A stretch of DNA of 64,000 nucleotides from Intrasporangium calvum DSM 43043 (lineage in GTDB: Bacteria; Actinomycetota; Actinomycetes; Actinomycetales; Dermatophilaceae). A program made the translations under genes and the position numbers. The notes beneath the pieces were generated by a model. That model was given only the letters and a program-made list of their open reading frames with translations, made no database searches and was not told where the DNA came from. The stretch is taken from contig NC_014830.1 in assembly GCF_000184685.1 (NCBI RefSeq), positions 3,906,001 through 3,970,000 of the forward strand, in the 5' to 3' direction. This document shows, piece by piece, positions 23,822 through 59,378 of the stretch (position 1 is the stretch's first letter; every line of letters begins with the position of its first letter).

Positions 23822-24024
23822 ACGCCGAGTCCTGCCAACGCCTTGAGTCCCGTTTGACCCGCATGGCAGGAGCGGGGGAACCACCGTTCCTCCGAGCGTC
23901 GTGGAGCCGGATCGTTCCGGCTGCGCGCCGCTCTTGGGGTGTAGCACCTCGACGACGGCCTCCGGGCCGGAGAAGAGAGCCGGGCAACCTTTCGCCCGAA
24001 CCCGACAGCTAACCTCGTAGGCGC
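23822..24024 (+). ncRNA. ydaO/yuaA-type c-di-AMP riboswitch
   Basis: The leader of the CHAP hydrolase gene contains the conserved blocks of this class in order: GCGGGGGAACCACC, CTTGGGGTG, AGAGAGCCGGGCAACC and CGAACCCGACAGCTAACC followed by TCGTAGGCG. The element ends just before the GAGAGG ribosome binding site. In actinobacteria these switches sit before wall hydrolases and turn expression down when c-di-AMP is high. Boundaries are approximate. Confidence 0.88.
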
Positions 24025-24036
24025 GAGAGGTTCTCT

Positions 24037-49086: not shown

Positions 49087-50460
49087 TCAGCACTCGATGA
49101 CGTTGACGGCCAAGCCGCCTCGCGCGGTCTCCTTGTACTTGACCTTCATGTCCGCCCCGGTCTCGCGCATGGTCTTGACCACCTGGTCGAGGGACACGAC
49201 GTGCGACCCGTCCCCGCGCACTGCCGTGCGGGCCGCGGTGATCGCCTTGACCGAGGCGATGGCGTTCCGCTCGATGCACGGGATCTGCACCAGACCGCCC
49301 ACCGGGTCACACGTCAGACCGAGGTTGTGCTCCATCCCGATCTCCGCCGCGTTCTCCACCTGCTCCGGCGTCCCGCCCATGACCGCCGCCATCGCGCCGG
49401 CCGCCATCGAGCACGCCGAACCCACCTCGCCCTGGCACCCGACCTCGGCCCCGGAGATCGACGCCGTCTCCTTGTAGATGACCCCGATAGCGCCCGCCGT
49501 CAGCAGGAACCGGACGATCCCGTCCTCGTCCGCACCGGGCACGAAGTCCGCGTAGTAGTGCAACACCGCCGGGATGATGCCCGCCGCTCCGTTCGTCGGC
49601 GCCGTGACGACCCGCCCCCCGGACGCGTTCTCCTCGTTGACGGCCAACGCATAGAGCGTGACCCAGTCCATCCCCCGCAACGGGTCGACGCTGCCGCTCT
49701 CGAGCTTCAGCTTCTGGGCCAGCTCCGGGGCGCGGCGACGCACCCGCAGTCCCCCCGGGAGGATCCCCTCCGTCGAGATCCCGTTGCCGATGCACTCCTT
49801 CATGACCGCCCAGATCTTCAGCAGTCCGGCGCGGACCTCTTCCTCGGTGCGCCAGGACAGCTCGTTCTCGAGCATGATCCGCGCGATCGACTTGCCCGTC
49901 TGGCGGCAGTGCGCCAACAGCTCGTCCCCGGTCCGGAACGGGTGGGCGACCTCGGTCGTGTCCGCCACGACCCGGGTCTCCCCGTCGGCCCCCTCACCGA
50001 TGACGAAGCCGCCGCCCACCGAGTAGTAGGTGTGCTCGGACACGACCTCGCCGAGCGCGTCGTAGGCCGTGAACGTCATGCCGTTCGGGTGCAGGGGCAG
50101 CGTCTTGCGACGGTGCAGGACGAGGTCGGTGTCCTCGTCGAACTTGATCTCGTGATGCCCGAGGAGCGAGACCCGCTGGTCCCGGCGGATCTGCTCGAGC
50201 CGGCCGGTCACGCTCCGCGGATCGCACAGCTCCGGCCGTTCGCCGGAGAGGCCCAGGAGCACGGCCTTGTCCGACCCGTGCCCGTGCCCGGTCGCACCGA
50301 GCGAGCCGAACAGCTGGGCGACGACCCGGGCGGTCCGCGGGAGGACGCTGTCGTCCCTCAGGCGTTCGGCGAACATCACCGCCGCGCGCATCGGGCCCAC
50401 CGTGTGGGAGCTCGACGGGCCGATCCCGATCGAGAAGAGGTCGAAAACGCTGAGCGCCAT
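49087..50460 (-). CDS. sdaA: L-serine ammonia-lyase, iron-sulfur type
   Basis: 457 residues, single-chain form. It deaminates L-serine to pyruvate. N-terminal domain signature [20 protein letters not shown]; the [4Fe-4S] region contains [17 protein letters not shown] and [18 protein letters not shown], with a C-terminal Cys as the penultimate-region ligand (NVIEC). Last gene of the gcvPTH-glyA-lipA run, one base after lipA in gene order reversed: its start at 50460 follows the lipA stop at 50462. It drains serine made by GlyA. Confidence 0.93.
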
Positions 50461-50461
50461 G

Positions 50462-51406
50462 TCAGGCTCCTTGTGCGTGCTGGCGACGGGCAGTGGCCTG
50501 GGCGTAGAGACGGCCGGCGCGGTAGGAGGACCGAACGAGCGGTCCGCTCATGACGCCGAGGAAACCGAGCTCCCGCGCGACGACGGCGAGCTCGTCGAAC
50601 TCGGCCGGCTCGACCCACCGGCTCACCGGGTGGAGCAGGGCCGAGGGACGGAGGTACTGGGTGATGGTGACGAGGTCGCACCCGGCGCCGCGCAGGTCGG
50701 TGAGCGCGGCCACGACCTCCTCCGGCTCCTCCCCCATGCCGAGGATGAGGTTCGACTTCGTGACGGCCCCGGCCCCTGCGGCGTACGCGATGACCTCGAG
50801 GCTGCGCTCGTAGCGGAAGCCCGGCCGGATGCGCCGGAAGATCCGTGGGACGGTCTCGATGTTGTGGGCGAAGACCTCCGGACCCGAGGCGAGCACGACG
50901 TCGATGAGCTCGGTCCGCCCGCTGAAGTCGGGCACGAGCAGCTCGACGCCCACCCCCGGGGTGCGCTCGTGGATCTCGCGAACCGTCTCGGCCCAGAGCC
51001 AGGCTCCCTCGTCCTCGAGGTCGTCTCGGGTCACCCCGGTGACGGTGGCGTAGCGCAGCCCCATCTGCGCCACGGACTCAGCCACCCGACGAGGCTCGTC
51101 ACGGTCGAGCGGCTGGGGCTTGCCCGTCGCGATCTGGCAGAAGTCGCACCGCCTGGTGCACTGGTCTCCGCCGATGAGGAAGGTGGCCTCCCGGTCCTCC
51201 CAGCACTCGAAGATGTTGGGGCACCGAGCCTCCTGGCACACCGTGTGCAGTCCGGCGCGTTCGACGAGTCCGGCGACCTCGGCGTAGCCGGGACCAGTGC
51301 GCAGCTGCTGGCGCATCCAGGCCGGCTTGCGCTCGAGGGAGGTGGCCGCGTTGGCCACCTCCAGTCGGAGCAGCCGCCGGCCGTCGGGCACGGTGCCGGT
51401 GCTCAT
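50462..51406 (-). CDS. lipA: Lipoyl synthase
   Basis: 314 residues, radical-SAM enzyme that inserts two sulfurs into octanoyl-GcvH and other carrier proteins. Auxiliary cluster motif [12 protein letters not shown] (C-x4-C-x5-C) and radical-SAM motif CTRRCDFC (C-x3-C-x2-C) are both complete. The C-terminal RSSYRAG is conserved. The ATGA overlap with glyA shows coupling. Its place in this operon supplies the lipoyl arm to GcvH. Confidence 0.95.
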
Positions 51407-52686
51407 GACGACAGCTCTGGCACCGCGGGGTAGAGCGGGTGCTTCGTCGCGAGCGCCTCGACCCGCCCGCGCAGGTGACCTGCGGTCTCGTCCGTCAGGT
51501 CACCCTGCAGGGCCTCGGCGATGACGTCGGCGACCTCGGTGAACTCGGTCGCGCCGAAGCCACGGGTGGCCAGGGCCGGGGTCCCGATCCGCAGTCCGGA
51601 GGTGACCATCGGGGGGCGCGGGTCGTTGGGGACCGCGTTGCGGTTCACGGTGATCCCGATCCGGTGCAGCCGGTCCTCGGCCTGCTTGCCGTCGAGCTGC
51701 GAGTCCACGAGGTCGACGAGGACGAGGTGGACGTCCGTGCCCCCGCTGAGGACCTTGATCCCCGCGGCGCGGGTGTCGTCGGCGGAAAGACGGTCGGCGA
51801 GGATCTTCGCGCCCTCGAGGGTCCGGCGCTGCCGGTCCTGGAACTCCGCGCTGCCGGCCACGAGGAACGACACGGCCTTGGCGGCGATGACGTGCTCGAG
51901 CGGACCGCCCTGGAGGCCGGGGAAGACGGCCGAGTTGATCTTCTTGGCGATGTCGGCGTCGTCGGTGAGGATGATCCCCCCGCGCGGGCCGCCGAGCGTC
52001 TTGTGCGTGGTCGACGTCGTCACGTGGGCGTGCGGCACCGGGTTGGGGTGGAGGCCGGCCGCCACGAGCCCGGCGAAGTGGGCCATGTCGACGAAGAGGT
52101 AGGCGCCCACCTCGTCGGCGATCGCGCGGAACTCGGCGAAGTCGAGCACCCGGGGGTAGGCCGACCAGCCGGCGATGATCATCTTCGGCTTGCGCTCCTG
52201 CGCGAGCCGCCGGACCTCGGCCATGTCGACCCGGCCGTCGTCGTCGACGTGGTACGGCACGACGTCGAAGGTCTTGCCGGAGTAGTTGATCCGCATCCCG
52301 TGCGTGAGGTGACCACCGTGCGCGAGGTCCAGACCGAGGATCGTGTCGCCGTGCTGGAGCAGCGCGAAGAACACCGCCGTGTTGGCCTGGGCGCCGGAGT
52401 GCGGCTGGACGTTGGCGAAGCCGGCGCCGAAGAGGGCCTTGACCCGATCGATGGCGAGCTGCTCGACGACGTCGACGTGCTCACAGCCGCCGTAGTAGCG
52501 GCGCCCAGGGTAGCCCTCGGCGTACTTGTTCGTCGCGACCGAGCCCTGGGCCTCCATGACGGCGAGGGGGGCGAAGTTCTCCGACGCGATCATCTCGAGC
52601 GTCGACTCCTGGCGCCGGAGCTCGGCGTCGAGGGCGGCGGCCACGTCGGGGTCCACCTGGGCGAGGTGCTGGTTGAGGAGGTTCAT
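51403..52686 (-). CDS. glyA: Serine hydroxymethyltransferase
   Basis: 427 residues from ATG 52686 with AGGAGC upstream. PLP enzyme that makes serine from glycine and methylene-tetrahydrofolate. Motifs: [34 protein letters not shown], and the PLP lysine in [16 protein letters not shown]. It uses the methylene-THF released by the Gcv system, so two glycines give one serine. Overlaps lipA by four bases and follows gcvH after 11 bases. Confidence 0.96.
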
Positions 52687-52697
52687 GGCGGGGCTCC

Positions 52698-53078
52698 TCA
52701 CGCGCTCTCGACGACAGCGCGGTAGGCCTCCGCGTCGAGCAGGTCGCCGAGACCGTCCTCGACGCGGAGACGGAAGAGCCAGCCGCCCTCGAAGGACGCC
52801 GCGTTGACGAGGCTCGGGTCGTCCACGACCGCGGCGTTCACCTCGGTGACCTCGCCGGTCAGGGGTGCGTAGAGGTCGCTCACCGACTTCGTCGACTCGA
52901 CCTCGCCGCAGGTCTCGCCGGACGTGATGGTCGAGCCGGCCTCGGGGAGGTCGACGTAGACGACGTCGCCGAGCGCCTCGGCGGCGAACTGGGTGATGCC
53001 GACGGTGGCGACGTCACCGTCGATCCGGACCCACTCGTGGTCCTTGGTGTACTTGAGGTCTGCGGGGATGGTGCTCAT
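52698..53078 (-). CDS. gcvH: Glycine cleavage system H protein
   Basis: 126 residues. The lipoyl-bearing lysine is in [14 protein letters not shown], and the start [20 protein letters not shown] is typical. AGGAGA precedes the ATG. It shuttles the aminomethyl group between GcvP, GcvT and the L protein. No gcvL/lpd gene lies in the window; the shared dihydrolipoyl dehydrogenase is expected elsewhere. Confidence 0.96.
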
Positions 53079-53136: not shown

Positions 53137-54237
<1,101 letters not shown>

Positions 54238-54266
54238 GCTTGCCTGCTCTCGGGTCGGGTTCACGG

Positions 54267-57206
<2,940 letters not shown>

Positions 57207-57255
57207 TGCGGGAGGCTCCCTGGTCGGTGCGCGCGTCAGAGCGCGACTGGATGGT

Positions 57256-57442
57256 CACCTCCCCGCTCTGTCATTGGACCTGAGAGCTTCACCGGCCTCT
57301 CAGCCGGCTTGCACCGTGGGTGCAGGACGCGGTCCTGCTTTCCAGAGTTCGCCTCATCGCAACGGTCATGGGGGCCTGAGAGATTCTGGGGAGAAGTTGC
57401 TCCTTCGGCGCCGCGACTGGCTGGTCGCGAACTCTCCCGCTG
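57256..57442 (-). ncRNA. Tandem glycine riboswitch upstream of gcvP
   Basis: Two aptamers on the minus strand. Aptamer 1: GCGGGAGAGTTCGCG ... CGCCGAAGGAGCAA ... ATCTCTCAGGC. Aptamer 2: ACTCTGGAAAG ... CACCCACGGTGCAAGCC ... CTCTCAGGTCCAATGACAGA then GCGGGGAGG. This is the cooperative on-switch that allows gcv expression when glycine is high. Boundaries approximate. Confidence 0.93.
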
Positions 57443-57477
57443 CGATTCGAATGGCGGATATGGAGTTTGTCGCGATC

Positions 57478-57506
57478 ACGGTAGGTGCCGCGGGGCTCCC
57501 CGTCAA
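57478..57506 (-). promoter_or_regulatory. Promoter of the gcvP operon
   Basis: On the minus strand TTGACG, 17 bases, TACCGT. Predicted transcription start near 57471, about 30 bases before the riboswitch. Confidence 0.6.
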
Positions 57507-57567
57507 TGCGTGACCACCTGATGGTGAACAGCGGTTCAGCAAGACATCCGACATCTGGACCGGGGGC

Positions 57568-57596
57568 TTGTGCCGTCCCGACGTCAGGTCTACCGT
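57568..57596 (+). promoter_or_regulatory. Promoter of the cycA-like gene
   Basis: TTGTGC, 17 bases, TACCGT. The -10 hexamer is identical to that of the gcvP promoter. Predicted start near 57603. Confidence 0.5.
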
Positions 57597-57633
57597 CCGG
57601 CGCACCATCTAATTGAAAATGCCATCGAGCTGT

Positions 57634-57828
57634 GGCGGGAGAGTCCCGTCGTCCTCAACGAGGACGTTCGGGCGCCGAAGGAGCAAGTCCTCCCCTGGAA
57701 TCTCTCAGGCCCCCGTACCGCCACCGGCTGGGCAACTCTGGAAAGCTGCCGGGCGCCACGCCCGGACACCGACGGTGCAAGCGGATGACTCCGCGAATCT
57801 CTCAGGTCCGAACACAGAGCGGGGAGGG
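57634..57828 (+). ncRNA. Tandem glycine riboswitch upstream of the permease
   Basis: Two aptamers on the plus strand. Aptamer 1: GGCGGGAGAGTCCCG ... GCGCCGAAGGAGCAAG ... AATCTCTCAGGCCCCCG. Aptamer 2: CAACTCTGGAAAGC ... CACCGACGGTGCAAGC ... AATCTCTCAGGTCCG then CAGAGCGGGGAGGG. It mirrors the gcvP switch and makes the permease glycine-responsive. Confidence 0.93.
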
Positions 57829-57860
57829 ACCACTCATCCCCTGCCGGAACGGACCGGACC

Positions 57861-59378
57861 ATGCCTCAACTCAGCAACGGCGCTGACACCCTGATCGCGC
57901 CTCCCCCCGCACCTCCGACCCCCGAGGCTCGGGCGGCCGAGGCGACCAGCGCGGAGAGCCCGCACCTGGCGCGCTCCCTGTCGAACCGCCACATCCAGCT
58001 CATCGCCATCGGCGGCGCCATCGGCACGGGGCTCTTCATGGGCTCCGGCAAGACGATCTCGCTCGCCGGCCCGTCGGTGATCTTCGTCTACATGATCATC
58101 GGCTTCATGCTCTTCTTCGTCATGCGGGCGATGGGTGAGCTGCTCCTCTCCAACCTCAACTACAAGTCGTTCACCGACTTCGCCGCGGACCTCCTCGGGC
58201 CGTGGGCCGGCTTCTTCACCGGCTGGACCTACTGGTTCTGCTGGATCGTCACCGGGATCGCCGACATCGTCGCGATCGCCGGCTACGTGCGGTACTGGTG
58301 GGCGGACCTGCCGCTCTGGATCCCGGCGGTCTCCGCGATCGTCCTGCTGCTCAGCCTCAACCTGCCGACGGTCAAGGCGTTCGGCGAGACCGAGTTCTGG
58401 TTCGCGCTCGTGAAGATCGTCGCGATCGTGACGCTCATCGTCGTCGGCATCGTCATGGTGTTCAACTCGTTCACCGCGCCGAACGGAGCCGAGGCCTCGT
58501 TCACCAACCTGTGGAACGACGGCGGGATGTTCCCCACCGGTGTCATGGGCTTCGTCGCGGGCTTCCAGATCGCGGTCTTCGCGTTCGTCGGTCTCGAGCT
58601 CGTCGGCACCACGGCCGCCGAGACGAAGAGCCCGGAGCGGACGCTGCCGAAGGCGATCAACTCGATCCCGATCCGGATCATGCTCTTCTACGTCGGAGCG
58701 CTCGTCGTCATCATGGCGGTCACCCCGTGGCGTGAGATCGTGGCCGACAAGTCCCCCTTCGTGGGCATGTTCAGCCTGGCCGGCCTCGGGATCGCCGCCT
58801 CCCTCATCAACTTCGTCGTGCTGACGTCGGCCGCGTCCTCGGCCAACTCGGGGATGTACTCGACGTCGCGGATGATCTACGGGCTGGCCCTCGAGGGCGA
58901 TGCCCCGTCCCGGCTCCGCCGGCTCACCAAGCGCAAGGTGCCCGCGAGCGCCCTGTTCTTCTCCTGCGTCTTCCTCCTCGGCGGCGTCGCGCTGCTCTAC
59001 GCCGGCACGTCGATCATGGAGGCGTTCACCGTCGTCACGACGATCTCGGCGCTGCTCTTCATGTTCGTCTGGTCGATGATCCTCATCTCCTATCTGGCCT
59101 ACCGGCGCAAGCACCCGGAGCGGCATGCCCGTTCCGCCTTCAAGCTGCCCGGCGGGGTCGTCATGGTCTGGGTCGTGTTCGGCTTCTTCGGCTTCCTCCT
59201 GTGGGCGCTCACCCAGCAGGCCGACACGCTGCGCGCCCTGCTCGTGACGCCCGTCTGGTTCGTCGTCCTCGGGGTGGCCTGGGCGATCGTCCGGCGCCGC
59301 CCGCACCACGTGGCCCGCTACGAGGCGTTCCGCCGGGCCTTGCAGGAGCCGAGCGAGACCTCCTCCACCGTCGTCTAG
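57861..59378 (+). CDS. cycA: APC-family amino-acid permease, CycA-like (glycine/serine/alanine)
   Basis: 505 residues with twelve membrane helices. The APC signature IQLIAIGGAIGTGLFMGSGK is in helix 1, followed by AGPSVIFVYMIIGFMLFFVMRAMGELL, which closely matches the AAT group containing CycA, the D-serine/D-alanine/glycine transporter. The consensus FVGLELVGTTAAETKSPERTLPKAINSIP is also present. The glycine riboswitch in its leader supports glycine as a substrate. The ribosome binding site is weak. Confidence 0.88.
   Translation: MPQLSNGADTLIAPPPAPPTPEARAAEATSAESPHLARSLSNRHIQLIAIGGAIGTGLFMGSGKTISLAGPSVIFVYMIIGFMLFFVMRAMGELLLSNLNYKSFTDFAADLLGPWAGFFTGWTYWFCWIVTGIADIVAIAGYVRYWWADLPLWIPAVSAIVLLLSLNLPTVKAFGETEFWFALVKIVAIVTLIVVGIVMVFNSFTAPNGAEASFTNLWNDGGMFPTGVMGFVAGFQIAVFAFVGLELVGTTAAETKSPERTLPKAINSIPIRIMLFYVGALVVIMAVTPWREIVADKSPFVGMFSLAGLGIAASLINFVVLTSAASSANSGMYSTSRMIYGLALEGDAPSRLRRLTKRKVPASALFFSCVFLLGGVALLYAGTSIMEAFTVVTTISALLFMFVWSMILISYLAYRRKHPERHARSAFKLPGGVVMVWVVFGFFGFLLWALTQQADTLRALLVTPVWFVVLGVAWAIVRRRPHHVARYEAFRRALQEPSETSSTVV

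Follow-up and report, generated by a model that had tools for sequence, protein, structure and literature searches.

The window analysed here, a stretch of 64,000 nucleotides, belongs to the genome of Intrasporangium calvum, a single contig of 4,024,382 bases. Within it, gcvP and a CycA-type permease gene diverge from an intergenic gap of 654 bp (57207-57860). On the minus strand lie gcvP (glycine dehydrogenase, 979 aa, 54267..57206; TIGR00461, 1323.6 bits, cut-off 859.2), gcvT (aminomethyltransferase, 53137..54267; TIGR00528, 355.6 bits, cut-off 235.85), gcvH (52698..53078; TIGR00527, 151.4 bits, cut-off 115.85), glyA (serine hydroxymethyltransferase, 51403..52701; NF000586, 594.2 bits, cut-off 335), lipA (lipoyl synthase, 50462..51406; TIGR00510, 325.9 bits, cut-off 310.25) and sdaA (L-serine ammonia-lyase, 49087..50460; TIGR00720, 698.2 bits, cut-off 345.1). 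On the plus strand lies the D-serine/D-alanine/glycine permease of 505 aa (57861..59378; NF008272, 787.8 bits, equivalog cut-off 732), so that all seven genes exceeded their curated NCBIfam cut-offs. The genes gcvP-gcvT-gcvH-glyA-lipA-sdaA appear to form one operon of presumed extent, and the permease, to judge from its sequence, probably carries glycine. With sdaA and glyA included, the gene set reads as a route from glycine to pyruvate with its own importer. A search of the same genome returned no second CycA-type permease at E <= 0.001, and it returned two further, more distant matches for gcvT (41% and 37% identical). Glycine is also a building block of the peptidoglycan of I. calvum, which is described as having a triglycine bridge and one further glycine (PMC3035309), and a link between this and the dedicated importer is possible. 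Elsewhere in the window, a c-di-AMP riboswitch (RF00379) was found at 23829-24034 on the plus strand (58.1 bits, cut-off 38).

Aptamers were called with cmscan and Rfam 15 on both strands of the whole window, the gathering score of RF00504 being 32 bits. Four matches exceeded their cut-offs, three of them to RF00504: aptamers 1 (57353..57449, 64.4 bits) and 2 (57258..57352, 42.0 bits) of the left leader on the minus strand, and aptamer 1 (57626..57730, 61.8 bits) of the right leader on the plus strand, each over model positions 1-94. The second aptamer of the right leader (57728..57827, plus strand) appeared in cmscan only as a partial match of 21 bits (E 0.13), and the custom covariance model R1 did not report it; R1 missed many second aptamers, and its single matches were not counted as single-aptamer leaders. 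In the search of the same genome this aptamer scored 49.0 bits over model positions 1-94 (G000:C1:3963728-3963827), and both leaders were therefore taken as complete tandems, with abutting aptamers in 57449-57258 (minus) and 57626-57827 (plus). It shares its first 3 bases with right aptamer 1, and its low score in cmscan could have been caused by the removal of overlapping matches. An earlier note on this DNA had proposed that 57256-57828 holds two tandem glycine switches pointing in opposite directions, one towards gcvP and one towards a CycA-like permease. That claim was borne out by the four aptamers and the gene assignments, and its limits agreed with ours within 2 bases; both strands, rather than just one, carried a scoring pair. 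Both leaders were thereby confirmed as tandem glycine riboswitches of predicted glycine binding.

Each leader is preceded by a promoter-like site, TTGACG-N17-TACCGT at 57478..57506 on the left (minus strand) and TTGTGC-N17-TACCGT at 57568..57596 on the right (plus strand). Both sites came from a pattern scan, and their hexamers and spacers were common, by eye, to the congeneric locus L035. The pattern TTG-N20-TACCGT, with 17 nt between the hexamers, matched exactly twice in the 64 kb window against 0.05 matches expected, in agreement with the same -10 box and 17-bp spacer that had been noticed earlier on both sides. A stricter sigma-70 consensus scan of 57150-57900 gave no promoter, and no intrinsic terminator was found in that interval. 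The intergenic middles of six other loci (L063, L066, L075, L076, L083, and L097) contain palindrome-like runs, for example TGGGTGATTCGGCTCACA near the start of the left leader, which we take to resemble CRP/GlxR sites; by eye such runs were not evident in the window.

The divergent pair was present at 12 distinct loci, two from Intrasporangium, nine from Micrococcaceae, and one (L116) from another family. Among 80 permease loci from named genomes, the best 80 of 588 relatives, aptamers at E <= 0.01 faced both gcvP and the permease in eight, stood on the gcvP side alone in six and on the permease strand alone in eight, and were absent from 58. The 12 loci comprise these eight, the window, L116, L220, and L225, whereas L115, L118, and L227 were left out as duplicates of records in this count; L220 and L225 belong to group f6, which represents Micrococcaceae by inference. 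The mirrored pair had been called unusual, which holds inside the family of Intrasporangium (2 of 119 genomes) but less so beyond it, since seven of the eight loci among the 80 were from Micrococcaceae and L116, L220, and L225 add to them. RF00504 itself was found in at least 168 of 297 genomes of the order and at least 140 of 149 genomes of f6. Among the matches listed, divergent pairs occurred at least in G000, G123, and G134 of the order and in G123, G453, G469, and G471 of f6. In L220 (G469:C25), the divergent glycine switches lie between gcvP and cycA homologues with their first aptamers 1.2 kb apart. Ten loci, the window included, were read base by base, and by eye the leaders on either side were all tandems; the first aptamers stand 151-322 bases from each other, and every leader ends in ACAGAG(C/T)GGGGAGG (20/20). 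The reading by eye covered these 20 paired leaders, and 53 leader tails were inspected. Another grouping of the same functions was seen in L071, from a Citricoccus MAG, where the permease-strand glycine switch precedes sdaA and cycA lies just downstream.

Among the titles and abstract openings listed from open-licence PubMed Central, no paper on divergent glycine riboswitch pairs was found, nor was any found in that collection on a glycine riboswitch with a cycA transporter or with an Arthrobacter permease. Divergent or opposite-strand switches and arthrobacter are unmentioned in the main text of two comparative papers (PMC6944388; PMC12452182). The parts are known, and the recurrent arrangement is apparently undescribed in the literature searched.

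On the left, GGGGAGG at the 3' end of aptamer 2 (57258..57264, minus strand) is a candidate switching strand. In the fold it pairs with CCTCCC (57210-57215), which lies between AGGGAG (57216-57221) and the gcvP ATG (57204-57206) in the ribosome-binding region (57204..57221, minus strand). The fold of this left platform (57198-57270) gave a z of -2.30, with 5 of 200 shuffles as good. On the right, GGGGAGG (57821-57827) has a local partner TCCCC (57837-57841) within 57821..57841 of the plus strand, and the fold was no better than shuffles (z -0.14, 79/200 as good). Folds of the whole leaders gave z values of -2.04 on the left and -0.40 on the right, and other platforms gave -0.28 (L035 right), -1.49 (L116 right), -1.22 (L066 right), and -1.05 (L066 left).

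A helix of 6-9 pairs, G-U allowed, between the strand at the end of aptamer 2 and bases ending 0-4 nt before the start was present on both sides in seven of the eight paired loci tested outside Intrasporangium (L057, L063, L066, L075, L076, L097, and L116); in the eighth, L083, it is broken on the right. In both Intrasporangium genomes this helix is present in the left leader, and the right leader has none near the start, its best one ending 16-17 nt before it. The pairing sequences differ among groups. In most Micrococcaceae leaders read, left and right alike, the GUUCCUC found after the Shine-Dalgarno sequence and before the start is complementary to GAGGAAC; L116 has GAGGACC:GGUCCUC in its right leader, and the left leaders of the window and of L116 have GGGAGG:CCUCCC. 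A third left-leader pairing, CAGAGCG:CGCTCTG, was discarded, being broken by eye in the congener L035.

Taken one by one, only 5 of 53 leaders had a ribosome-site helix better than that of a shuffled site (p<=0.05), and the window leaders gave 0.124 (left) and 0.283 (right). When strands and ribosome sites were swapped among 119 leaders, cognate combinations were better: none of 5000 shuffles was as low for the 81 tandem leaders and 1 of 5000 for the 38 single-aptamer leaders, compared with 239 and 3176 of 5000, respectively, for a control pairing. For the 44 tandem leaders without GTTCC, 82 of 5000 shuffles were as low. Start codons in the helix and swap tests were picked by script or by eye; the right leader of the window, where no start reached a Shine-Dalgarno match of 4, is outside the swap-test set, and at least for L057 right the swap test took an upstream ATG, unlike the helix test. 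Tail and partner types were exactly complementary in 5 of 14 cases against 1.27 expected (5/10000), in the forms AAC:GUU, GUC:GAC, and ACG:CGU, the required anchor being present in 35 of 72 leaders. Among 58 sister pairs, the cognate ribosome-site pairing was better in 22, worse in 25, and tied in 11 (p 0.40), and therefore the signal of the swap test lies between lineages and not within them. Based on these comparisons, a ribosome-site hairpin is likely across the clade, though unproven.

The gap would give rise to two separate leader RNAs, both of them tandem glycine riboswitches and each transcribed from a promoter of its own. Control of the gcvP-to-sdaA operon, a predicted route from glycine through serine to pyruvate, would fall to the left leader, and control of the glycine permease to the right leader. 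Binding of glycine to the aptamer pair would most likely release GGGGAGG from the hairpin over the ribosome-binding region, by which translation would go up (ON) and glycine would be imported and burnt only when it is present. Two translational ON switches that raise uptake and breakdown together are probably what the gap encodes, a direction and mechanism that we infer. For the left leader, which stands before glycine-cleavage genes as gcv-type ON switches do, the ON direction is plausible. For the right leader, in whose platform no distinctive fold was seen, it is unproven. That uptake and breakdown are induced in coordination, as suggested in the earlier note, is best called plausible. In its favour are the two-sided helices of seven of the eight paired loci outside Intrasporangium; against it are the right leaders of both Intrasporangium genomes, which have no such helix near the start, and the right platform of the window, which folds no better than shuffles.

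The closest known systems agree with parts of this scheme. According to PMC5666159, the B. subtilis gcvT riboswitch (RF00504) likewise has two serial aptamers before glycine-cleavage genes and turns expression on. However, that system is one switch with a transcription terminator, whereas in I. calvum the two switches occupy opposite strands, 57150-57900 yielded no terminator-like site, and a ribosome-site hairpin is possible. In another actinobacterium, Streptomyces griseus, the gcvT-gcvH and gcvP operons are each reported to be under a tandem glycine switch, which allows glycine to be used as a carbon source (Tezuka and Ohnishi 2014, via PMC5666159). There, both of the switches serve glycine catabolism on glycine-cleavage operons, whereas in I. 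calvum one is on a permease and the two share the 654-bp gap.

How binding of the ligand could free the start codon may be explained by an exchange of strands within each leader. The P3b loop of aptamer 1 contains CTCCCC, complementary to GGGGAG, in both the left (57388..57393, minus strand) and the right leader (57690..57695, plus strand); GGGGAG could pair with this loop in the glycine-bound RNA and with the ribosome-site strand in the ligand-free RNA. Such a capture is a hypothesis compatible with the two ON switches, and we put it forward tentatively, as a possibility with the odds rather against it. At least five complementary pairs were present in all 95 distinct leaders compared, but CCCC and GGGG were requirements of the selection, and both runs are almost invariant, so that the core is beyond the reach of covariation. 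The comparison could use 130 of 144 parsed leaders, 12 having no flank match and two having altered loops; L200, excluded because its loop is altered, still shows ten pairs by eye. In the 81 tandem leaders, the cognate loop and flank paired better than swapped ones (21 of 5000 shuffles reached as low a value, compared with 239 for the control), and among the 58 sister pairs 21 were better, 10 worse, and 27 tied (p 0.024, against 0.68 for the control). However, several tests were made, and a p of 0.02 is therefore weak. The varying outer pairs of tandem leaders showed no excess (657, 657, 1140, and 1207 of 2000). The pair immediately outside GGGG was in excess in 30 single-aptamer leaders (11/2000), but single-aptamer leaders had no cognate excess overall (1995/5000).

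On the other hand, the two switches could have opposite signs, the gcv switch being ON and the permease switch OFF, so that high glycine would raise breakdown and shut uptake as protection from glycine toxicity. This arrangement would match the published model, in which gcv-linked switches activate and transporter-linked glycine switches are reported to repress (PMC5829553; PMC6944388), and the right platform of the window is indeed unlike the left. An example is the switch of the Streptococcus pyogenes sodium:alanine symporter (PMC5829553), similar in that a glycine switch stands on a likely uptake gene, and different in that one aptamer is predicted, the switch represses, and the transporter is of another family; the portions of that paper covered mention no divergent partner. 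However, homologous paired loci outside Intrasporangium mostly carry the ribosome-site helix on both sides. Moreover, according to PMC6944388, gcv control is tied to stronger conservation of aptamer 1, and aptamer 1 outscored aptamer 2 in both leaders of the window, which resembles the gcv pattern loosely, as the score from one model is a different measure. Opposite signs are rather unlikely in our view.

If both switches are ON, as we prefer, glycine would induce its own uptake, which is a logic of nutrient use rather than of detoxification. In its fullest form this would be a glycine-induced importer within a back-to-back feed-forward arrangement, assembled at least twice in Actinobacteria, with the P3b loop capturing the start-blocking GGGGAG; the whole of that combination is doubtful, and, if true, would contradict the published model of repressing transporter-linked switches. 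With one transporter-linked and one gcv-linked switch in a shared gap, the same boxes, and related leaders, the locus would allow the ON/OFF model to be tested cleanly in a natural setting.

As for the origin of the pair, the left and right leaders of the window were 71.5% identical, within the range of 66.3 to 84.8% between the two leaders of the same locus in the ten loci. Mean identities between loci were 79.4% (left-left), 80.2% (right-right), and 76.9% (left-right). The best matches to the left leader of the window were the left leaders of L035 (91%) and L116 (82%); the best match to its right leader was L035 right (89%), followed by several Micrococcaceae left leaders (78-80%) and L116 right (77%). 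In a tree of 40 leaders, in which 23 of 37 inner branches were below 80, the bootstrap was not settled, and five branches were long, a clade of the four Intrasporangium leaders was rejected (p-AU 0.0157), as was a single clade of 17 right-hand leaders (p 0.042), and the labels left and right needed only 2 changes on the tree, compared with 7.0 in shuffles. Duplication by inversion, raised earlier as a source of the mirrored pair, is not supported as a recent event in the Intrasporangium lineage and is very improbable. In its favour, each leader is a full tandem, the conserved segments of the two are much alike, and the few label changes would fit one old split into sides. Against it, the left leader is nearer to its counterpart in another family than to its neighbour, the right leader is likewise nearer to leaders outside the genus, and the Intrasporangium clade failed. 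The leader identities and the rejected clade make the two switches look old and separate rather than recent mirrored copies; an ancient duplication before the lineages split is possible.

The permeases were also placed in a tree (89 rows; a quick, simple LG+G4 analysis), in which a single clade of the ten paired permeases was rejected (p 7.95e-7) and a clade of those of the window, L035, and L116 was not (p 0.62). Because the paired permeases do not form one clade, either the layout arose two or more times or it is of ancient date, with later losses or transfers.

A fifth RF00504 match of the same genome (G000:C1:2048160-2048274; 1501-1615 of locus L003, minus strand) is a single aptamer before another gcvP, 58% identical to that of the window. 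RF00504 was found in 106 of 119 genomes of the family, in a search whose filters lose some weak matches; 104 list one match, and the two Intrasporangium genomes, which make up the genus in the collection, list five each. Among these 119 genomes of the family the divergent pair was seen only in these two, on a second glycine-cleavage operon. All 28 loci fetched from other genera of the family had an aptamer before a gcvP 51-62% identical to the window copy. In a quick gcvP tree, the L003 copy fell among the family copies, and the window copy grouped with those of the congener L035 (G015) and of L116 (G134, another family) with an SH-aLRT of 100. The simplest reading is that the window locus is a second, catabolic glycine system gained by transfer, while loss in the other genera is possible.

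The single-aptamer gcvP leaders of the family (L003 and the 28 loci among L006-L034) resemble the window leaders in having the same aptamer class before gcvP, and 11 of 13 read have GGGGAG after a short second stem. They differ in that those read have only one full aptamer and in that no cycA match occurred within the loci of roughly 3 kb. The short second stem with GGGGAG looks like a ghost of aptamer 2 and its flank. In L003, where a MerR-type gene and a bifunctional-nuclease-domain gene neighbour the aptamer, GACGGGG follows the second stem and pairs with a TCCCGTC directly upstream of AGGAG, and in L010 and L025 GGGGAC stands in place of GGGGAG.
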